The translations under genes were made by a program, and so were the position numbers. Positions 32,829 through 42,860 of a stretch of DNA of 64,000 nt are shown in pieces (position 1 is the first letter of the stretch; every line of letters starts with the position of its first letter). Below the pieces are notes generated by a model. That model ran no database searches, was not told where the DNA came from, and saw only the letters and a program-made list of their open reading frames with translations. The stretch is from Akkermansia sp. RCC_12PD (GTDB lineage Bacteria > Verrucomicrobiota > Verrucomicrobiia > Verrucomicrobiales > Akkermansiaceae): the NCBI RefSeq assembly GCF_036417355.1, contig NZ_CP143889.1:992001-1056000 (forward strand), written 5' to 3'.

Positions 32829-33977
32829 ATGAAAACACTCATTAAAAACGCACGCATCATTTCCCCCGGCATCGACCTGCCCGGGGCAGCCGTGGAAATC
32901 GAAGGAACGGTCATCACCGCCGTTTATCCCGCCGGGAGCGAACTTCCCGCGGCGGACAAGGTGGTGGACGCGGAAGGCAAGATGCTCCTTCCCGGATTCA
33001 TCGACATCCACAGCCACGGTGCCGGCGGCTGCGACACCTGCGACGCAAAGCTGGAAAGCCTCCGCACCATCGCGGAATGCAAAATGAAGGAAGGCGTCAC
33101 CTCCTGGCTGCCGACCACCCTCACCCTGTCTCCCAAGGTGCTGGAAAACGTGTGCGCCTCCGTAGCGGAATACATGAAGAACCAGGAATTTGCGAAAACC
33201 CCCGGCGTTCATCTGGAAGGGCCGTTCATCAATCCCAAGTGCTGCGGTGCGCAAAACCCCGCCTTTGTCCGCCAGCCGGACTATGATGAAGTAGCCAATC
33301 TCAATTCCATCGCCAAGGTGCTGCTGGTCTCCCTGGCGCCGGAAATGCCCGGCGCCGTGGACTTCATTTCGAAAGCATCCGCCGCAGGCATCCGCTGCTC
33401 CGCCGGCCACAGCGCGGCTACCCACGAGGATTTCAACAAGGCGAAAGCCGCCGGCCTGGTCCACCTGACCCACTACTGCAACCAGATGTCCCCCCTGCAC
33501 CACCGTGAAATCGGCCTTGTGGGCTCCGGACTGCTGGACAGGGAAATCAAGATCGAAATCATTTGCGACACCATCCACCTCTGCGCGGACATGCTCAAAA
33601 CCGTATTCAAGAACAAGGAAACGGACCAGATGATGATGATCACGGACTCCCTGGCCTGCTCCTGGATGCCGGACGGCCCCGGCGACCTCGGCGGCCTGCC
33701 CATCATCGTGAAGGACGGCGTGGCTCGCTTGCAGGAATCCGGCGCCCTGGCCGGCAGCACCCTCAAATATGCCCACGGCCTGAAAAACGTGCACCGCCTG
33801 ACCGGCAAGCCCCTCAGCGAGCTGGTCAAGGCTACCTCCTGGAACCAGGCCCAGTCCCTGGGACTGGAAGGCCTCGGCAAGATCGCGCCCGGCTTCACGG
33901 CGGACATGGTCCTGCTGGACGATGATTTCAACACCTCCAGGGTGTTCATCGACGGCGTAGAAAAATACAGCGCCTGA
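32829..33977 (+). CDS. nagA: N-acetylglucosamine-6-phosphate deacetylase
   Basis: A 382-residue cytoplasmic amidohydrolase that converts GlcNAc-6-phosphate to glucosamine-6-phosphate, the first committed step of GlcNAc use and of amino-sugar recycling. The metal-site motif PGFIDIHSHGAGG (about 55-67), GVHLEGPFINPKCCGA (about 128-143), SAGHSAAT and the closing Asp region MITDSLACSW are present. Length is normal. It is preceded by 62 bases of A+T-rich DNA and followed by a perfect 16-bp hairpin. With galK and the sulfatase it fits a mucin-glycan diet. Confidence 0.94.
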   Translation: MKTLIKNARIISPGIDLPGAAVEIEGTVITAVYPAGSELPAADKVVDAEGKMLLPGFIDIHSHGAGGCDTCDAKLESLRTIAECKMKEGVTSWLPTTLTLSPKVLENVCASVAEYMKNQEFAKTPGVHLEGPFINPKCCGAQNPAFVRQPDYDEVANLNSIAKVLLVSLAPEMPGAVDFISKASAAGIRCSAGHSAATHEDFNKAKAAGLVHLTHYCNQMSPLHHREIGLVGSGLLDREIKIEIICDTIHLCADMLKTVFKNKETDQMMMITDSLACSWMPDGPGDLGGLPIIVKDGVARLQESGALAGSTLKYAHGLKNVHRLTGKPLSELVKATSWNQAQSLGLEGLGKIAPGFTADMVLLDDDFNTSRVFIDGVEKYSA

Positions 33978-33988
33978 ATGCGCACACT

Positions 33989-34023
33989 TGTGTGATGGAG
34001 CGGCTTTGCCGCTCCATCACACA
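33989..34023 (+). other. perfect 16-bp hairpin after nagA
   Basis: TGTGTGATGGAGCGGC (33989-34004) pairs with GCCGCTCCATCACACA (34008-34023) around TTT. It starts 12 bases after the nagA stop and lies before the E2-like gene. Only weak T-richness follows (GCACTTTCCC), so termination may be partial. Confidence 0.7.
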
Positions 34024-34061: not shown

Positions 34062-35105
34062 ATGGCCATTACCATTGAAATGCCCCGCCTTTCCGATTCC
34101 ATGCACGAAGGCATCGTCCTGAGATGGATCAAAAAAATAGGAGACTTTGTGGAAGTGGGAGACCACCTGGCCGACATCGAAACGGAAAAGGCCCACGTGG
34201 AGCTTCAGGCATGCGAGGACGGAACCCTGACGGAAATCCTGGTGCCGGAAGGCGCCACAGCCGCCGTGGGCACTCCCATTGCCCTGCTGCAGTCGGAATT
34301 CGGTGCGGCCTCCTGTGACTGCCCCCCTTCCTCCCCCGTGGTAAAATTCAGTCCTCTGGCTGCCAAACTGGCGGCGGAAGCCGGGATGGACCCCGCCAGC
34401 CTGCACGGCACCGGTCCGCACGGCAGAATCATGGCGGCGGACGTACGCGCCGCGGTTCGCCGGACTGAAGGCCCCGCGCGGAAGGTGCATACCCCCCTGG
34501 CGCCGAAGGATACGCGCCATGCCACGCGCGTGGACAACTTTTATCTTTATACTCTGGGGGCCAACATGTCCTATCTGGCCGCCATCAGCACGCCCATTGC
34601 CGTCCAGTGTGAAAAGCTCATCGGGGGGCGCTACAGTCTGTTCGACTACGTCGTGCGCGCCGCCGTCAAGGCATGTCTCAGCGAACCGGAATGGCTGGCG
34701 GGAGACGCTTCCGCGGAACTCCTCATGGTGCTGGACAAGGGGGAAAAATACGTCCTCATTGAAAACGCTGGCGCCAAGACCATCTACAACATTGCCATGG
34801 AACGGTTCGCCGCATCCAAATCCGGTGCGCCCGCTCCGGGAACCGTGGCGCCCAACATCCTGCTCTGTGACAGCGGCGTGAATGTGGAAGCCCAGCGCTC
34901 CGTCATACGCGACATGCCCCACAGCATCATCAGCATCGGAGGCACGACACCAAAAACGGGCATTGAAGCGGGACGCCCCGTTTCCAAGCTCATCCTGCCC
35001 GTCACCCTGTACGTAAACGCCAACATTCTTCCGGAATGCAAGGCCTCCAAAATCGCCGCCGAATTCAAAACCCTGCTGGAAAACCCGGTCTTGCTGCTCC
35101 TGTAG
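34062..35105 (+). CDS. E2-like (lipoyl-domain acyltransferase) protein without the catalytic motif
   Basis: A 347-residue protein with the domain order of 2-oxo acid dehydrogenase E2 subunits: lipoyl domain (1-76, modifiable Lys43 in DIETEKAHVELQA), an E3-binding domain (about 96-132, FSPLAAKLAAEAG to GRIMAADVRAAV) and a C-terminal acyltransferase-type domain (about 160-347). In true E2 enzymes the end carries DHRxxDG with the catalytic His and Asp; here the equivalent region is TLYVNANILPECKASKIAA, so both are missing although the final LLENPVLLL remains. The Pro/Ala linker is also short. No E1 or E3 gene is nearby. It may be a non-catalytic lipoyl carrier or scaffold. Confidence 0.82.
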   Translation: MAITIEMPRLSDSMHEGIVLRWIKKIGDFVEVGDHLADIETEKAHVELQACEDGTLTEILVPEGATAAVGTPIALLQSEFGAASCDCPPSSPVVKFSPLAAKLAAEAGMDPASLHGTGPHGRIMAADVRAAVRRTEGPARKVHTPLAPKDTRHATRVDNFYLYTLGANMSYLAAISTPIAVQCEKLIGGRYSLFDYVVRAAVKACLSEPEWLAGDASAELLMVLDKGEKYVLIENAGAKTIYNIAMERFAASKSGAPAPGTVAPNILLCDSGVNVEAQRSVIRDMPHSIISIGGTTPKTGIEAGRPVSKLILPVTLYVNANILPECKASKIAAEFKTLLENPVLLLL

Positions 35106-35772: not shown

Positions 35773-36861
35773 TTATACACGAGCCAAGTCCAGGAGTTGT
35801 TTCCTCAAAGTGTAATAAGCACCGCGGCGTCCTTTGCAGAAGGACATGAGCTGGCATTGCCAAAAGGCGGCCTTATTCCAATTTAACGGGAATTTTCTCA
35901 GAAGAAAACAAAATGTTCGATCCCACTTGTCCAGCCGCTCCAAACTGTTTTCTCCACCAATCAACTCCAACCATTCATTCCATTTTTTCAACAGGCTCAC
36001 GCGGTCTTCCTTGGAGGCTTTGAAAAAGGCTCCCTCTTGCATGATGAAATGCCGGCGGAGGAATTCCATGTAGTAGTCAATCAACCCATATTTTACTTCC
36101 GCCGTCCATAAACCTTTTTCCTGCCAGAATCGTGTGACCGCATTCATGTTGAGCAAATCCATACGGTAATCATTAAGCAGAATGTTTCTCCCGTAAGTGG
36201 CTGAACCGGCTCTTTCACGGCGATAATGATAAAAACGATTTCCCATTGTTAGTAACCGTGGGGCAAAAGGGAGAAGCATCAGCAAAAAAGCCATGTCTTC
36301 CCCCTCTTTCAGACCAGGAATAAACCGCACGTAATGTTCTTCTAGCACGCTTCTGCGTATCAGCTTGTTGCATACCGGGCCCACACAACGGCTCCAGATA
36401 GAACCCCGCCGGAATTTCTCCACATGCTCCTCTGGATAAAACATGGTATCGGGAGACCAGCTTTCCTCTTCCAACACAGCACCCGTCTTATCAGAAAAAG
36501 CGGTGTATCCGCATACGGCAACGTCGGCCTGGTTCTCCACGGCATTCTGGAACAAGCATGCAAACATGTCCTTTTCCACCAAGTCATCCGGATCAACGAA
36601 CCCTACATAACTCCCTCGAGAAATCTCTAACCCGGCATTTCGTGCCATGGATACGCCAAAATTTGACTGGTCAATAATCCGGATGTGCGGGAATTGTTGC
36701 GCCCATATCTGCAAGCGGGACAAAGTTCCATCCGTGGAACCGTCATTCACGCAAATGATTTCCATTTGGTGCAAGGTCTGAGCCGTCAGTGCCTCTAGGC
36801 AATTATCCACATACGACTCTACGTTATAGCATGGAACAATAATGGAAACATCAATATTCAT
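35773..36861 (-). CDS. glycosyltransferase family 2 (array member 4)
   Basis: A ~362-residue cytoplasmic GT2 enzyme expected to add a sugar from a nucleotide donor during surface-glycan synthesis. The GT-A fold motifs are IIVPCYNVESYVDNCLEAL, CVNDGSTDGT and the metal-binding VDPDD region. The C-terminal ~150 residues are family-specific and rich in Trp and Arg. I chose ATG 36861 because it overlaps the stop of the upstream paralogue as ATGA; the frame runs back to 36918. It is the last of four tandem paralogues and the most diverged. Donor and acceptor are unknown. Confidence 0.9.
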   Translation of the reverse strand: MNIDVSIIVPCYNVESYVDNCLEALTAQTLHQMEIICVNDGSTDGTLSRLQIWAQQFPHIRIIDQSNFGVSMARNAGLEISRGSYVGFVDPDDLVEKDMFACLFQNAVENQADVAVCGYTAFSDKTGAVLEEESWSPDTMFYPEEHVEKFRRGSIWSRCVGPVCNKLIRRSVLEEHYVRFIPGLKEGEDMAFLLMLLPFAPRLLTMGNRFYHYRRERAGSATYGRNILLNDYRMDLLNMNAVTRFWQEKGLWTAEVKYGLIDYYMEFLRRHFIMQEGAFFKASKEDRVSLLKKWNEWLELIGGENSLERLDKWDRTFCFLLRKFPLNWNKAAFWQCQLMSFCKGRRGAYYTLRKQLLDLARV

Positions 36862-37943
36862 AAACAGGAGGACAAGTACAACTTCAAGCGGTAATAACGG
36901 CCACGGCGACCACTGCAAAATCCCATGAGGCGATAAATCAAACGAGGGAACACCAACTTTTCAGGCCCCCTCCCATCCAGTAACCGGCAAAACTTTCGGT
37001 CCCAGGATCGCAGTCCTTTAAATTCCGGCGACAAACCGGAAACAGCAAACCATTCACGGTATCTTTTCACCAATTCCTTCCGGCTGCAGTCATCCAGCAC
37101 ACGAAAGATTTCTTCTGCTGATGAAACGTGCGCCAGCAGAAAGCGCTTCAGCAAATAAGCCATCCAGCCACGGGAAAGGGCAGACTCCTGCCAACTAATG
37201 TTACACCAATAAGAAGTAACGTATTCCAGCCGTTCCATGTCCAAACCATAAGGACAACCGCAAATTTCCCACTGGTAGGAAATAGCTCCCTTCCTCTGCT
37301 TGCGGTACCAATACAAACGATCCGGAATAACGGCAAGACGGCCCATATGGGGGAGCAACATCAGCCAAAAAACATCATCTTCTCCCTTTCGAAATGAAGG
37401 CACAAATTTAAGAGCGCACTTTTCCAGAAACGAGCGAAGATACAATTTGTTACAGGCTATAGATTCCATCCGGCACCAGACGGAATCCGAGTGAAAAACA
37501 CTTTCCCGCACGCATTCCTCCACTCCGGCAGCAGGAGATCTGCTCCACTCCTCCATAATAGTGCCGTTACAATCAGAGAAGGCAACATAACCGCATGCAG
37601 TAACATCAGCTCTGGAGGATCTGGCAGTTTCTAACAGGCGTTCGTACATGGAATATTCCACATAATCATCAGGGTCTACAAAACCGATATATTCTCCCTG
37701 TGCCAAATCCATACCGGCATTGCGTGCGGCGGAAAGGCCGCCGTTCTCCTGATTGATTACCCGGATGCGGTGGTCTTTCCTCTCCCAGCACTGGAGTACC
37801 GCCAATGTACTGTCCGTAGAGCCGTCATTCACACAAATGATCTCAATATCCTGCAAAGTCTGGTTCACCAGGCTGTTCAAGCAAACATCCAGGTACGGAG
37901 CTACATTATAGCAGGGAAGAATAACGGAAACCGTATTATTCAT
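36858..37943 (-). CDS. glycosyltransferase family 2 (array member 3)
   Basis: A 361-residue GT2 enzyme starting MNNTVSVILPCYNVAPYLD with CVNDGSTDST and DPDDYVEYSMY as donor and metal motifs. Its first ~100 coding bases are almost identical to those of the next paralogue (99 of 101 bases match 38980-39080), while the C-terminal half has diverged. It overlaps the next gene by four bases (ATGA) and follows the preceding one after 15 bases, so the four genes form one operon. The shared N-terminus implies the same donor class. Confidence 0.92.
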   Translation of the reverse strand: MNNTVSVILPCYNVAPYLDVCLNSLVNQTLQDIEIICVNDGSTDSTLAVLQCWERKDHRIRVINQENGGLSAARNAGMDLAQGEYIGFVDPDDYVEYSMYERLLETARSSRADVTACGYVAFSDCNGTIMEEWSRSPAAGVEECVRESVFHSDSVWCRMESIACNKLYLRSFLEKCALKFVPSFRKGEDDVFWLMLLPHMGRLAVIPDRLYWYRKQRKGAISYQWEICGCPYGLDMERLEYVTSYWCNISWQESALSRGWMAYLLKRFLLAHVSSAEEIFRVLDDCSRKELVKRYREWFAVSGLSPEFKGLRSWDRKFCRLLDGRGPEKLVFPRLIYRLMGFCSGRRGRYYRLKLYLSSCL

Positions 37944-37958
37944 GGGTCATCTATCTTA

Positions 37959-39101
37959 TTACAGTTTCTTATTCAGAGGGACACCAGTATCTTCCGTTTG
38001 CAGGCGGCTGGCCTCTGCCGCTGCAAGAGCCAGCTTTCTCCGCATCACGTAATAGCGTCCGCGACGTCCACGGCAATGGGAAAGAAGATTCCACCAAGCC
38101 AGGGAAAGGGGACCAGCACGTTCCGGAGGACATGCAAGCAAGCGGCAAAAGGCATAATCCCATTTACCCAGATTGCAGAAGACATCTGTATCCCCTACCA
38201 TTGAAAACCATTTCCGGCACTTATTGCGGAACAATGCCCATTCCTGTTCATCCAGAGACGGGAGAGGGTGGTTCATGGAAATCAAATGCGCCAGCAGATA
38301 ATGTTGCAAAACGTGGGATACCCAGCCCAGACTTACACCCGATTCCCACCAGCCCGCCTTTTTCCAATACATCGTTGCATACTCCAACCGTTCCAATACC
38401 ACTAGGAAAGAAGTTCCATCTTTTCCGCAAAAGGAAGAAACAGAACCTTTCCTTTGCCTGCGATACCAATACAAACGGTCTGGGATAACAGCAAGGCGGG
38501 TTACGTGCGGTAACAACATCATCCAAAACACATCATCTTCCACGGAACGGAATGAAGGTTCAAACCGAAGACGGTTTTTTCTCAAAAAATCATTCCTGTA
38601 CAGTTTGTTCCACACAACGACATCCGCCTGCATCCAAAGAGCATTCCATTGGAATGGACTTTCTTTCATGTTTTCCTCTACTCCGGCATCTGGAGAAAGG
38701 CTCCATTCTTCCAGCACTGCCTCATCAGAATCGGAAAAACCTGTATAACCGCAAACCGCTACGTCTGCATCATATCTACGAGCTTCTTCCAGCAGACGGG
38801 CATACATGGAATGTTCCACATAATCGTCCGGGTCTACAAAACCGATATATTCTCCCTGTGCCCAATCCATGCCGTCGTTGCGGGCGGCAGCCTGCCCTCC
38901 ATTTTTGCGGTTAAACACATGCACACGGCTGTCTTTTAAAGCCCATGCATTTAATAGAGACGGCGTATCATCCATAGAACCGTCATTCACACAGATGATC
39001 TCAATATCCTGCAAAGTCTGGTTCACCAGGCTGTTCAAGCAAACATCCAGGTACGGAGCCACATTATAGCAGGGAAGAATGATGGAGACGGAGGGGTGCA
39101 T
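37959..39101 (-). CDS. glycosyltransferase family 2 (array member 2)
   Basis: A 380-residue GT2 enzyme starting MHPSVSIILPCYNVAPYLD. Motifs CVNDGSMDDT and VDPDDYVEHSMYARLLEEA are intact except that the usual STDGT is SMDDT. I chose ATG 39101, which begins the family's first strand 12 bases after the upstream paralogue's stop; the frame extends to 39269 inside that gene and is rejected. The N-terminal 101 coding bases match those of array member 3 almost exactly. The end (ASRLQTEDTGVPLNKKL) extends beyond its paralogues. Confidence 0.92.
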   Translation of the reverse strand: MHPSVSIILPCYNVAPYLDVCLNSLVNQTLQDIEIICVNDGSMDDTPSLLNAWALKDSRVHVFNRKNGGQAAARNDGMDWAQGEYIGFVDPDDYVEHSMYARLLEEARRYDADVAVCGYTGFSDSDEAVLEEWSLSPDAGVEENMKESPFQWNALWMQADVVVWNKLYRNDFLRKNRLRFEPSFRSVEDDVFWMMLLPHVTRLAVIPDRLYWYRRQRKGSVSSFCGKDGTSFLVVLERLEYATMYWKKAGWWESGVSLGWVSHVLQHYLLAHLISMNHPLPSLDEQEWALFRNKCRKWFSMVGDTDVFCNLGKWDYAFCRLLACPPERAGPLSLAWWNLLSHCRGRRGRYYVMRRKLALAAAEASRLQTEDTGVPLNKKL

Positions 39102-39112
39102 ACTATTGAAAA

Positions 39113-40225
39113 TTATTTTTTCGGGTATTCCTGTGCCAAAAGAACTCGCAGGGTATAATAGCGGCCCCGGCGTCCACCGCGGCGGGAAAGAAGTTTCCAC
39201 CACATACGGCGCATCCAGTACGGAGTTTTTGCGGGCTGGGATAATAGACGGCAAAACGCTGTCTCCCATTTATCCAATATCTGCAACCTGTCCACCTTGT
39301 CCCCGGCCAGCGCAAACCACTCTTGGAATTTTCCGTGGAAAGCCCGCCATTCCTCTCTGCTTAAAGGGGGAAACGGCTTATGCACGGGCACCAGGCGTTG
39401 CAACAGGTAGCACCGCAGGAAATAAACCACCCATCCTCTTTCCAGGCCGGATTCCAGCCATCCGAATTTTTTCCAGTAAACGGTAGCACATGCCAGACGA
39501 TCTATCAAAAGAAGAACGGGGGCCCCTTCTTCTTCCCATTTCAGGGAAAGGGCTCCCTCCCTTTCTTTCCTGTACCAGTATAAACGGTCGGGAATTACTG
39601 CCAGACGGGAAACATGCGCCAGCAGCATCAGCCAGAAAAGAACGTCCTCCGCCTGCCTGCAGGAAGGTTCAAAGCAGAGGTTGTTTCTTTCCAGAAACCC
39701 TCTCTTATATAGCTTGTTCCAAGCGACTATATCCATTCTTTCACAGGCAGACCCTGATCCAAATACACTTGACTGTGCATCTTCCTCCACTCCGAAATCC
39801 GGCGAGATATTCCATTTCTCAAAAACCTTCCCGCCATGAACTGAAAAACATGTATAACCACACGCCACGACATCCGAGTCATGCCTGCGGGCTTCCTCCA
39901 GCAGACGGGCATACATGGAATGTTCCACGTAGTCGTCCGGGTCCACAAAGCCGATATATTCCCCTGCCGCCAGTTCCATACCAGTGTTACGGGCCACGGA
40001 AAGGCCGCCGTTTTCACGGTCAATCACCCGTACACGGCTGTCCCGTTCCTCCCAGGCGCGCAGCAACGCCGGGGTACCGTCCGTGGACCCGTCATTCACA
40101 CAAATAATTTCAATATCCCGGAGAGTCTGGCACACCAGGCTGTCCATGCAGGCATCCACATAAGGAGCTACATTATAACAAGGGACAATGATGGATACGC
40201 TTACCGCATGCAATGCAATCTCCAT
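39113..40225 (-). CDS. glycosyltransferase family 2 (array member 1)
   Basis: A 370-residue GT2 enzyme starting MEIALHAVSVSIIVPCYN. CVNDGSTDGT and FVDPDDYVEHSMYARLLEEA give the donor-binding and metal sites. It is the first gene of the four-gene array. A promoter-like pair upstream (TTGACT 40246-40251, 17 bases, TACATG 40223-40228) would place the -10 on the start codon, so either that pair is not the promoter or the start is misjudged. The left arm of the dyad element at 40229 lies four bases before the ATG. Confidence 0.92.
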   Translation of the reverse strand: MEIALHAVSVSIIVPCYNVAPYVDACMDSLVCQTLRDIEIICVNDGSTDGTPALLRAWEERDSRVRVIDRENGGLSVARNTGMELAAGEYIGFVDPDDYVEHSMYARLLEEARRHDSDVVACGYTCFSVHGGKVFEKWNISPDFGVEEDAQSSVFGSGSACERMDIVAWNKLYKRGFLERNNLCFEPSCRQAEDVLFWLMLLAHVSRLAVIPDRLYWYRKEREGALSLKWEEEGAPVLLLIDRLACATVYWKKFGWLESGLERGWVVYFLRCYLLQRLVPVHKPFPPLSREEWRAFHGKFQEWFALAGDKVDRLQILDKWETAFCRLLSQPAKTPYWMRRMWWKLLSRRGGRRGRYYTLRVLLAQEYPKK

Positions 40226-40228
40226 GTA

Positions 40229-40415
40229 ACGGATTAGAAATCCGAAGTCAAACCAAACAGCCGGACAGAAAAGGGCATACGCATTGCCAGACGCATGTTC
40301 CTGAAAAAAGATTTTCCTATGAGCTTCTTTCCAGAATTTAACATAATTGTTTTATTAACAAATGGTAATCAACCTTGGGAAAAATCGGAAACAACCTTCC
40401 GGATTTCTAATCCGT
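40229..40415. repeat. 187-bp element bounded by inverted CGGATT dyads, copy 2
   Basis: ACGGATTAGAAATCCG (40229-40244) recurs inverted at 40400-40415. Each arm is a perfect palindrome CGGATT-NNN-AATCCG. Inside the left arm both copies continue as AAGTCAA, and the right arms of both are preceded by CCTT, so the two elements (here and at 28281-28476) are related beyond the dyad. The core has no gene. Both copies lie between divergent genes about 400 bases apart. Confidence 0.6.
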
Positions 40416-40420
40416 ATAAT
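40392..40420 (+). promoter_or_regulatory. candidate promoter for the GT8 genes
   Basis: A perfect TATAAT (40415-40420) follows a 17-base spacer that contains the right CGGATT dyad (40400-40414); the -35 position CAACCT (40392-40397) is poor, as expected if an activator binds. Transcription would proceed towards the GT8 genes. Confidence 0.45.
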
Positions 40421-40648
40421 TAATTCCGTATCATGAGCGTTTTTACCGCAGAAGTTGTCCTATGCTGTGAATAACGGAAAAAGCAGTTGCAGACGTGTTT
40501 TTACGCTTCCTCCCCAGCGCACCGGAATTCATCCTCATCATGAAACTGAAACTTCCTTCTTCCACCATTCCCTGCATAAGGATTCTTCACAGGCAACGGA
40601 ACCTCTCCTCATTCCGCCCATTTTTCGTTTCCTGTTGAAATCCAGCCC

Positions 40649-41737
40649 ATGCCGACTTCATCTTCTCCTTGCCAGAAAAAGGGGCATCCCGTTCCCATCA
40701 TGTTTGCCGTCACTTCCTCCTGGCTTGTTCCTTTGGCGGTGACCCTTTATTCTCTCTGCCTTCATTCCAATCCCCGCCGCCTTTATGAAATCCAGATCGT
40801 TCATGACGGCCTGAGAGCTTCAGAAATGAAGGAACTGCACAAGGCCATCTCCGGCCATCCCCATATATCAATTCATTTTGCCACGCTCCCGGAAAAACTG
40901 TTCCAATCCCTCCAGAACAGGGATTGCGGCCGATTTTCCTCCCTGTCCTACGTCCGCCTTCTGGCTGCCGGCCTGTTTCCCCAGTATGACCGGCTCCTGT
41001 ATCTGGATGCAGACATCCTGCTGAACGGAGACGTAGCTGAACTTTACGATACCGAACTTCAGGGAAAACCGATAGCCGCCGTCCGGGATTGCGCTGTCCT
41101 GCAGAGCATCTGCACGGGAAGGCTCGCGCCCCATCTGGAATGCGTGGCTGGCACGGGCGTAACTTTCCCGCTGCTGTACTGCAATACAGGAGTAATGGTC
41201 ATGGATCTCCGTCAAATGCGGCAAAAAGACATGGAAAATACTCTTTTCCGGATACTCCGCTCCCGCCCGGATTCTTTTCCGTACGGGGATCAGGACATTT
41301 TAAACATCGCCTTTCACGGCAGCATGATGCCCCTGCCCGTAGAGTGGAATTACCACTTCCAATTCGAACTGCACCACAAAGGAATGCAGGCCCTCATCAC
41401 CGGAACCGAATTCGAGAAAGTGCATGCCCTGTTCAACAACCGTTCATGGAAGCTGTTCCATCTGGTCGGCGACTACAAGCCCTGGCTCCCGCCGGACATG
41501 GAAAAGATTTACCACCGCCTCTACCTCTCCCTCTGGTGGCCGGCCGGCCGGCAGACTCCCGCATTCCGCGCCGAACTGCGTTCCCTCTACCGGGAATTCA
41601 CACGCCCCATCCGTTCCCGGATGCACCGCCATCAATGGAGGCTGCTCATCTCCCCCGCCAAAGTCTTCCGGAAACGCCGGATAAAGATCAAAGGTCTTCA
41701 ACGACTGCTGGCCGTCTTTGACGGCAGCTGGCAATAA
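40649..41737 (+). CDS. glycosyltransferase family 8 (first of two)
   Basis: A 362-residue retaining GT8 enzyme of the LgtC/WaaJ type. The N-terminal region PIMFAVTSSWLVPLAVTLYSL and the metal-binding YLDADILLNGDVAELYD (DxD), then FNNRSWKLFHLVGDYKPW near 265, match the family, which adds galactose or glucose to lipopolysaccharide cores. The basic C-terminal segment (FRKRRIKIKGLQRLL) may bind the membrane. It is followed by a paralogue 37 bases later. Sugar specificity is unknown. Confidence 0.9.
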   Translation: MPTSSSPCQKKGHPVPIMFAVTSSWLVPLAVTLYSLCLHSNPRRLYEIQIVHDGLRASEMKELHKAISGHPHISIHFATLPEKLFQSLQNRDCGRFSSLSYVRLLAAGLFPQYDRLLYLDADILLNGDVAELYDTELQGKPIAAVRDCAVLQSICTGRLAPHLECVAGTGVTFPLLYCNTGVMVMDLRQMRQKDMENTLFRILRSRPDSFPYGDQDILNIAFHGSMMPLPVEWNYHFQFELHHKGMQALITGTEFEKVHALFNNRSWKLFHLVGDYKPWLPPDMEKIYHRLYLSLWWPAGRQTPAFRAELRSLYREFTRPIRSRMHRHQWRLLISPAKVFRKRRIKIKGLQRLLAVFDGSWQ

Positions 41738-41774
41738 TACTATATTTTTCAACAATTTTCCCTTTTTTACCCTT

Positions 41775-42860
41775 ATGCAATCTACATCAATCCATTCCCC
41801 GCACGGACAGGCTGCCGTTGCTGTCATGTTTGCCGTTACTGCGCCATGGACCGTCTGCCTGGCCGTCACCCTTCACTCCCTGTGCGTCCACGCCAATCCG
41901 GACCGGAGCTATGAAATCTGGATCGTCCACGACGGTCTGACCGGAGAAAACATACAGGAATTGCGTAAAGCCGTTGCCGCATATCCTCATGTGCTCCTGC
42001 ATTTCAGCACGATGCCGGACAAACTGGCGGCTGTGCTGGACCACCGGGACGTCAAACGCTTCTCTTCCCTGGCATATGCACGTCTGCTGGCCGCCAGCCT
42101 TTTGCCCTCTCACAACCGAATAGTGTATCTGGATGCGGATACGGTCATCTATGCGGATGTAGCGGAACTTTACGATGCCGACCTCGGCGGAAATCCTCTG
42201 GGTGCCGTTCGGGACGTATCTGTACTGAGCAGCCTGATTGCAGGCTATCCGCGCCTCCAGCTTAGAAAACTGGAACCGCTCGGCCTGAGCAATCCCCGCC
42301 ATTACTTCAACTCGGGCGTTTTGGTTCTGGATCTGGCCCTGATACGGGCGGAAAATGCGGAACCGCGCCTCCTTCAGGTGATTGAAGAATACAACGAACA
42401 ACTGGAGCATCCGGACCAGGACGCCCTGAACATCGTGTTTCACGACCGGATATCCCCTCTCCCCGTTGAATGGAATTATCACTTCCAGTTTGAGCTGAAA
42501 AAAGACGGCTTGGAAGCCGCAGCGGAGGGAACGGAATTCTCCGGCATTTCCACGATTTACGCCAACCGCTCATGGAAGCTCTTTCATATGATCGGCTCCA
42601 AAAAACCCTGGCTTCAGCCTGAAAAGACGGAAGAATACCTTATGTCCACGAATGTCTGGTGGGAAGCGGCCATGGAAACCCCTTCCCACCAGCCCTACGT
42701 AAAGAATTTGCTGGATGAATTCACACGCTGGACGCGCAAGCAGCTCCGCTACAACCAATGGCACCTTCCCTTCTCCTTCGGAAAGAATTTCCGCAAACGC
42801 CAGAAAAGAATCCGCTTGTTGAAACGCCTGCTGCACGCTTTTGAAAACGGCAGGGCATGA
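41775..42860 (+). CDS. glycosyltransferase family 8 (second of two)
   Basis: A 361-residue GT8 paralogue of the preceding gene, with AVMFAVTAPWTVCLAVTLHSL, the DxD motif in YLDADTVIYADVAELYD, and a C-terminal basic segment (FRKRQKRIRLLKRLL). ATG 41775 gives a start equivalent to that of its paralogue; the frame runs back to 41718 into the previous gene and that extension is rejected. The two genes are about equally long and clearly arose by duplication but have diverged at DNA level. Ends 45 bases before the convergent VIT/VWA gene. Confidence 0.9.
   Translation: MQSTSIHSPHGQAAVAVMFAVTAPWTVCLAVTLHSLCVHANPDRSYEIWIVHDGLTGENIQELRKAVAAYPHVLLHFSTMPDKLAAVLDHRDVKRFSSLAYARLLAASLLPSHNRIVYLDADTVIYADVAELYDADLGGNPLGAVRDVSVLSSLIAGYPRLQLRKLEPLGLSNPRHYFNSGVLVLDLALIRAENAEPRLLQVIEEYNEQLEHPDQDALNIVFHDRISPLPVEWNYHFQFELKKDGLEAAAEGTEFSGISTIYANRSWKLFHMIGSKKPWLQPEKTEEYLMSTNVWWEAAMETPSHQPYVKNLLDEFTRWTRKQLRYNQWHLPFSFGKNFRKRQKRIRLLKRLLHAFENGRA

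Follow-up and report, generated by a model that had tools for sequence, protein, structure and literature searches.

The analyzed window comprises 64 kb (C1:992001-1056000) of the 3.17-Mb single-contig genome of an Akkermansia strain. It carries the gene of a 347-aa protein with similarity to the E2 subunits of 2-oxoacid dehydrogenase complexes, here referred to as the E2-like protein. The following features were assigned to this gene and its upstream neighbourhood:

32829-33977, plus strand: nagA (N-acetylglucosamine-6-phosphate deacetylase), the conserved upstream neighbour; TIGR00221 above cut-off
33989-34023, no strand assigned: perfect 16-bp hairpin without a U-run between nagA and the E2-like gene; from the sequence
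34062-35105, plus strand: gene of the putatively disarmed E2-like protein, 347 aa; orthologues in 50 of 59 genomes of the genus
34071-34286 (C1:1026071-1026286), plus strand: lipoyl domain, residues 4-75; Pfam Biotin_lipoyl PF00364, E 2.1e-17
34188-34190, plus strand: codon of Lys43, the expected lipoylation site (DIETEKA); from the sequence
34341-34448 (C1:1026341-1026448), plus strand: peripheral-subunit-binding domain (PSBD, E3_binding), residues 94-129; PF02817, E 5.3e-12, 50.1 bits
34530-35102, plus strand: stripped catalytic domain, a predicted E2 core fold without active site; residues 157-347 of the AlphaFold model, and hhalign
34866-34871, plus strand: Cys269-Asp270, replacing Ser-Asn of the E2 motif TISNLG; from alignments
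35010-35036, plus strand: YVNANILPE, replacing the DHRxxDG region; Ala320 codon at 35019-35021, Pro324 codon at 35031-35033

The form of the protein found in the window, here named the long form, shows the domain order of an E2 (lipoyl domain, PSBD, C-terminal domain); a short form found in other genomes has no lipoyl domain. An earlier note on this DNA had described Lys43 and the E3-binding domain as intact; the position of Lys43 in DIETEKA and the Pfam matches to both domains bear this out. The C-terminal part was barely matched by the Pfam model 2-oxoacid_dh (residues 273-347, E 0.02, below cut-off). The best NCBIfam model for the protein was the mitochondrial-type pyruvate dehydrogenase (PDH) E2, reached with 112 of 445 bits and thus far below its cut-off.

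The earlier note had also stated that genes of E1 and E3 are not nearby. Indeed, an E1-alpha/E1-beta/E2 operon (near C1:1,361,000-1,364,500), SucA-SucB (near C1:2,537,000) and the single PF02852 (E3-type) match of the genome (C1:62,560) are all located outside the window. The E2 and E3 families were searched in the whole genome and E1 was located by reading neighbourhoods. By eye, a series of similar long ORFs further downstream in the window (35773-42860) resembles glycosyltransferase paralogues; the first four, which start with a sequence like SVSIIVPCYN, lie on the minus strand and are followed by two related ones on the plus strand.

Three aligners agreed that Ala320, Pro324 and Glu325 occupy the positions of His, Asp and Gly of DHRxxDG. 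YVNANILPE was placed on this motif by phmmer against solved E2 chains, by MAFFT with E2s of related genera and by hhalign, where the orthologue alignment A3 (the window protein and 49 of 56 Akkermansia-type loci) matched 17 canonical E2s with 99.9% probability over the whole protein. The replacement proposed in the earlier note was thereby reproduced. Additionally, TISNLG reads LLCDSG in the window protein, and in the MAFFT alignment the protein lacks the helix that opens the catalytic domain in related E2s (RKIIADRL) as well as two further stretches. The accompanying statement that the surrounding fold-defining sequence remains was therefore correct only in part: the first helix, about ten mid-domain residues, part of a further helix and TISNLG are lost or changed. 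The C-terminus NPVxLLL resembles LIENPALML of canonical E2s.

The pattern H-x-x-x-[DN]-G was found neither in the window protein nor in the 50 orthologues, with G037 judged by its C-terminal frame only. This rules out a shifted active-site motif, and since the motif is present in 0 of 50 orthologues a recent mutation or a sequencing error is ruled out as well. Relatives with an intact motif, which according to the earlier note would imply a recent mutation, do not occur among the orthologues of the genus; the intact relatives that were read belong to other genera and have a different gene context. In 3 of 47 aligned orthologues (G002, G006 and G030) a His is located one column off (YVHTS[VI]PE), and G032 has ADHRLDRE; none of these has HxxxDG. 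Judged from its sequence, the window protein is predicted to be catalytically dead.

The AlphaFold model of the protein had a mean pLDDT of 71. Within the C-terminal domain the means of ten-residue blocks were mostly 78-93, with 48-62 in three blocks. The lipoyl part was of low confidence (block means up to 52) and its fold was not used. Structure comparison (VIA-align), which covered mostly residues 157-347, gave 7uom as the best match among E2 cores (Z 16.2, rmsd 3.2, 168 residues). The model 6h60 of the human E3-binding protein (E3BP) was matched with Z 14.7 and rmsd 3.0 over 158 residues. In the predicted structure the fold of the E2 catalytic core is retained, apart from the first helix that is missing in the alignment.

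In total, the E2-like protein was found in 50 of 59 Akkermansia genomes, with 10 long, lipoyl-bearing forms and 40 short forms starting directly at the PSBD. In G037 the long form is split into two overlapping frames, the N-terminal one showing DIETEKA. The orthologues of G040 and G052 (L097 and L098) retain the PSBD and a C-terminal NPVALLL, but their stripped domain is short by about 20 residues and has diverged strongly. These three orthologues were omitted from alignment A1. Within the stripped domain SxPIAVQCEKL, Cys269-Asp270, Gly294 and Lys298 were invariant or near-invariant; Cys269 is present in 46 of the 47 rows of A1, with Ala in G015, and Asp270 in all 47.

Pairwise dN/dS was calculated for hand-chosen pairs, seven of long and twelve of short forms, of which one short pair was saturated. 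Values for the whole gene ranged from about 0.06 to 0.18 (seven long and eleven short pairs with finite dS) and those of the stripped domain from 0.035 to 0.19 (18 chosen pairs with finite dS). Among the three domains of the long forms, dN was lowest for the lipoyl domain in 6 of the 7 pairs and highest for the PSBD in every pair; in short forms the dN of the stripped domain was lower than that of the PSBD in 7 of 12 pairs. The loss of the motif is thus fixed in the sampled genus, and these data support that the protein is under purifying selection. A decaying paralogue under reduced selection, as considered in the earlier note, would be in line with the losses at the active site, the strongly diverged domain in G040 and G052, the split frame in G037 and the absence of the protein from G041 and its relatives. 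We reject this explanation as very improbable because dN/dS was well below 1 in all 18 pairs with finite dS; moreover, frames are open and synteny is fixed across the sampled genus. The other suggestion of that note, a scaffold with a new role, gains support from the fixed loss and the purifying selection, together with a good PSBD and an E2-like fold.

In all 47 testable loci nagA directly precedes the E2-like gene in the same orientation, with gaps of 18-201 bp in the 46 measured ones; the entry of G004 was read on record L109, whose last 200 residues are identical. Gaps of this size leave little room for a lipoyl protein encoded on its own between nagA and the genes of the short forms, and this possibility was rejected. 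The hairpin at 33989-34023 may separate the transcripts of nagA and of the E2-like gene. Strong hairpins of different sequence were found at this place in several relatives and none in others.

The constant position next to nagA might indicate that the site left without its catalytic residues has taken on a new ligand or activity, perhaps in connection with the use of amino sugars. The residues that remain invariant or near-invariant in the stripped domain and its low dN/dS point in the same direction; on the other hand, one of these residues, Cys269, is exchanged for Ala in G015, and the domain is shortened and strongly diverged in G040 and G052 next to a kept PSBD. Furthermore, nagA and the gene are set apart by a strong hairpin in several species, and a new ligand site would give no reason for the persistence of the PSBD. 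We regard this explanation as rather improbable.

To trace the origin of the protein we compared it with E2s outside the genus. Among the best 80 of 99 loci of a contig scan, the E2-like protein occurred only in records of the Akkermansia/Akkermansiaceae type, including one record titled uncultured Verrucomicrobiales and two titled uncultured bacterium. The remaining 24 of these 80 were ordinary E2s: DHRxxDG was present in 22, L166 is truncated and L180 reads DHRILYG. Among the matches listed for 189 genomes of the order, no orthologue was present outside the genus; the matches there spanned only the PSBD side of the model and ended at or before position 145.

Eleven loci outside the genus were read. 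Ten of them, seven in the family and three elsewhere in the order, encode a canonical PDH-type E2 with a PSBD starting SPLARK, a GSGP.GRI-like turn, DHRVVDG and a LIENPALML-like C-terminus. The remaining locus, selected for its SucB, shows DHRLVDG and lacks a PSBD. One of the E2s from related genera (L267) passes the cut-off of TIGR01349, the model of the mitochondrial-type PDH E2. E1-alpha and E1-beta genes were found beside the E2 in four of the seven same-family neighbourhoods read (L277, L280, L281 and L283) and not in the other three; nagA was found in none of the seven.

Aligned with nine E2s of related genera, the window protein matched seven over nearly the full length (26-28% identity, E 5e-29 to 2e-40) and two in two pieces. 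In comparison to the catalytic E2 of its own genome the alignment covered only residues 3-115. In a tree of the lipoyl domain and PSBD, the long forms joined the related-genus E2s with 85/74 support (not starred) and the catalytic E2 of Akkermansia stood apart with 100/100; one of the ten related-genus loci chosen (L269) was left out, and the eukaryotic E3BP was not in the tree. With the mitochondrial-type PDH E2 (TIGR01349) of other genera the protein shares the sequence type of the lipoyl domain, PSBD and C-terminus; unlike these family E2s it has no DHRVVDG, T[IV]SNLG or RK[IV]IAxRL-type helix. On account of this kinship in alignment and tree, the E2-like protein is probably the former mitochondrial-type PDH E2 of the family in a disarmed state.

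The E1-alpha/E1-beta/E2 operon of Akkermansia encodes a catalytic PDH-type E2 of 424 aa with GDHRVVDG. The earlier note had suggested looking for a second complete E2 in the genome, and this protein is one. We infer that the complex of this E2 and its E1-alpha and E1-beta replaced the former PDH in Akkermansia. The PSBD of the catalytic E2 (L042:8200-9474) is unusual in that it carries an insert of three residues (SPRMKARMDELGMRASDI), and the protein stops a few residues before canonical E2s end (RPEYL).

A canonical E2 match was present in 49 of the 50 carriers of the E2-like protein, in G056 as a fragment only and with G021 (81% complete) as the exception, in comparison to 4 of the 9 non-carriers. 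Among the latter, G041 (99% complete) has the PDH-type E2 and G045 (82% complete) has SucB only. In a further genome, G136, likewise 99% complete, SucB and the PDH-type E2 occur without the E2-like protein. G001, G003, G031 and G041 carry an intact nagA without the E2-like gene within the up to 1.5 kb read beside it. These four genomes form one clade, in which G041 keeps the E2 and the other three have no E2 match, so that the joint absence in G001, G003 and G031 counts as one event. Not all nine non-carriers can be taken as true absences, since a clear nagA was found in only five (G001, G003, G031, G041 and G046); the nagA of G046 is cut by the end of its contig, and the nagA match in G045 was weak. 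Fisher tests on the co-occurrence gave p 0.0006 (54 genomes) and 0.00014 (59 genomes), with G021 (E2 missing) and G056 (E2 fragment) included in the counts; they ignore kinship and are not to be taken as probabilities. On the nagA tree of 51 rows, which is without G021 and G044 (no nagA), G012 (too short) and G037, the presence of the E2-like protein changed twice, counting G046 with its contig end, and that of E2 and of SucA once each. Since the PDH-type E2 of G041 and G136 occurs without it, the E2-like protein is not obligatory; as nearly all carriers have an E2 and the E2 does not need the E2-like protein, the latter appears to be an accessory part.

The lipoyl domain, which is well conserved within the A. 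muciniphila group, follows a different distribution. Lipoyl-bearing forms were exactly those of the SucA-positive carriers (10 of 10 long and 0 of 40 short forms), a link that corresponds to one branch of the nagA tree as read by eye. Of the 9 long forms in A1, 8 have the lipoyl Lys. In L020 (G015) it is Tyr (DLQTEYA), and this protein should therefore carry no lipoate at that place. A shared role as lipoyl carrier, as proposed in the earlier note, does not hold, given that 40 of 50 orthologues are without the domain and 1 of 10 long forms has Tyr for Lys.

The SucB of the strain (L041:9320-10411) has no PSBD, and PF02817 gave no match to SucB in any of the 11 SucA-positive genomes among the 59. 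The PSBD was also absent in 29 of the 30 best-scoring SucB loci (L205-L234) of a class sample searched with a local model (112 genomes with a match); this selection is biased to close relatives, with 11 loci from Akkermansia and 19 from outside the genus. Loss of the PSBD in the E2 of the 2-oxoglutarate dehydrogenase complex (OGDH) is described as eukaryotic in the consulted part of PMC9974300. The E2-like protein could hence serve the OGDH and supply a lipoyl arm and a PSBD in trans for the PSBD-less SucB. Such a role would agree with SucB lacking the PSBD in 11 SucA-positive genomes and with the restriction of the lipoyl-bearing forms to these genomes. However, SucA gave no match in 40 carriers, SucB occurs without the E2-like protein in G045 and G136, and the link of lipoyl domain and SucA amounts to a single tree branch. 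PSBD-less SucB is also found in other genera, the source of 19 of the 30 best loci, and no orthologue of the E2-like protein was among the matches listed outside the genus. The SucA-less carriers, the SucB-bearing non-carriers and the PSBD-less SucB of other genera weaken a role confined to the OGDH in particular, and we consider a function in this complex to be improbable.

The PSBD is the domain that long and short forms share in addition to the stripped domain. It scored 38-54 bits against PF02817 in the E2-like proteins (30.6 in G015) and 23-34 bits in the catalytic PDH-type E2s of the genus. Of the two PSBDs, that of the E2-like protein is therefore the closer to the consensus, in line with a division of labour between this protein and the catalytic E2. 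The dead core domain, the kept PSBD and the purifying selection are compatible with a docking subunit. Counting against this are the occurrence of the PDH-type E2 without the E2-like protein in G041 and G136, the location of the gene with nagA and not with genes of E1, E2 or E3, and the PSBD of the long forms, which is less conserved than the two other domains in each of the 7 pairs.

In the mechanism that we propose, the former PDH E2 of the family would have been disarmed through loss of the catalytic His and Asp, the Ser/Asn motif, the first catalytic-domain helix and active-site loops. The E1/E2 chemistry would have been taken over by the other complex in the genome and the disarmed E2 retained in a structural role without catalysis. 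The E2-like domain at its C-terminus may anchor it to a 2-oxoacid dehydrogenase core, either as trimers of its own, in mixed trimers or on the core, and its PSBD may hold a peripheral enzyme, most likely the single E3 of the genome. Docking of E3 would thereby be split from docking of E1 on the catalytic E2, and in the A. muciniphila group the disarmed E2 would bring an extra lipoyl arm as well. Binding to the core is uncertain because the first helix of the catalytic domain is gone. Core binding, E3 binding and an effect on flux are likewise inferred.

Alternatively, the E2-like protein could tether E1 rather than E3, or sequester E3 or E1 as a regulator outside the complex. Among solved chains its PSBD was closest to those of mammalian PDH E2s, with no E3BP chain in that list. 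According to the consulted part of PMC10156792, the E2 PSBD binds E1 in the eukaryotic PDH complex and is unselective in bacteria, which would allow for an E1 tether. The catalytic E2, on the other hand, has a divergent PSBD of its own that could bind E1, and the kept C-terminal E2-like end argues for core binding and against this alternative, which we judge unlikely. By analogy with E3BP, E3 would be the more probable partner for the PSBD of the E2-like protein. Taken together, the chances seem close to even that the protein is a non-catalytic docking subunit which tethers E3, or less likely E1, to a 2-oxoacid dehydrogenase core and works like the eukaryotic E3BP.

E3BP (protein X, PDHX) is a eukaryotic E2 paralogue recruiting E3, and bacteria use one PSBD on E2 for both E1 and E3 (consulted part of PMC10156792). 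Both E3BP and the Akkermansia protein are E2-derived and combine a PSBD with a dead E2 fold, and in the long form also with a lipoyl domain; a reduced C-terminal domain is likewise described for the fungal E3BP in the same part of that source. The Akkermansia protein differs in that it is bacterial and apparently derived from an Akkermansiaceae E2, in that 40 of its 50 members have no lipoyl domain, and in that its binding to E3 and core is putative. It also has no E3BP-specific leucine in the PSBD motif, a marker given in the consulted part of PMC10156792: this leucine is the second residue behind the conserved Asp in helix 2 of the PSBD, where the window protein has Arg (D127-V-R129). The missing leucine, the closeness of the PSBD to those of E2s among solved chains and its high dN in the long forms speak against naming the protein an E3BP, and our claim is limited to a likeness in function. 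The E3BP-like protein of Akkermansia probably arose independently of the eukaryotic one. A second point of comparison is MRPS36/KGD4, the E3 adaptor of the eukaryotic OGDH, which to our knowledge has neither a PSBD nor an E2 fold. It is likewise a separate protein proposed for docking of E3 to a PSBD-less E2, has about 11 kDa and is said to be without prokaryotic orthologues (consulted part of PMC9974300). Among titles and abstract starts of the open-licence literature we found neither a bacterial E3BP nor work on the Akkermansia E2-like protein.

In annotation, Akkermansia should not be credited with a second acyltransferase on account of the E2-like protein. We tentatively propose, at somewhat less than even chances, that Akkermansia replaced its PDH and kept the disarmed E2 as a bacterial E3-binding protein which decouples recruitment of E3 (or E1), convergent with the eukaryotic E3BP and reduced to PSBD and dead core in 40 of 50 carriers. 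If true, this would be an independent bacterial case of an E3BP in a gut genus with cultured members. Why the E2 is disarmed in a docking subunit is left open for mammals in the consulted part of PMC10156792, and a bacterial case would let one test why this happens when an E2 becomes one. The findings suggest that bacteria, like animals and fungi, can convert a disarmed E2 into a docking subunit.
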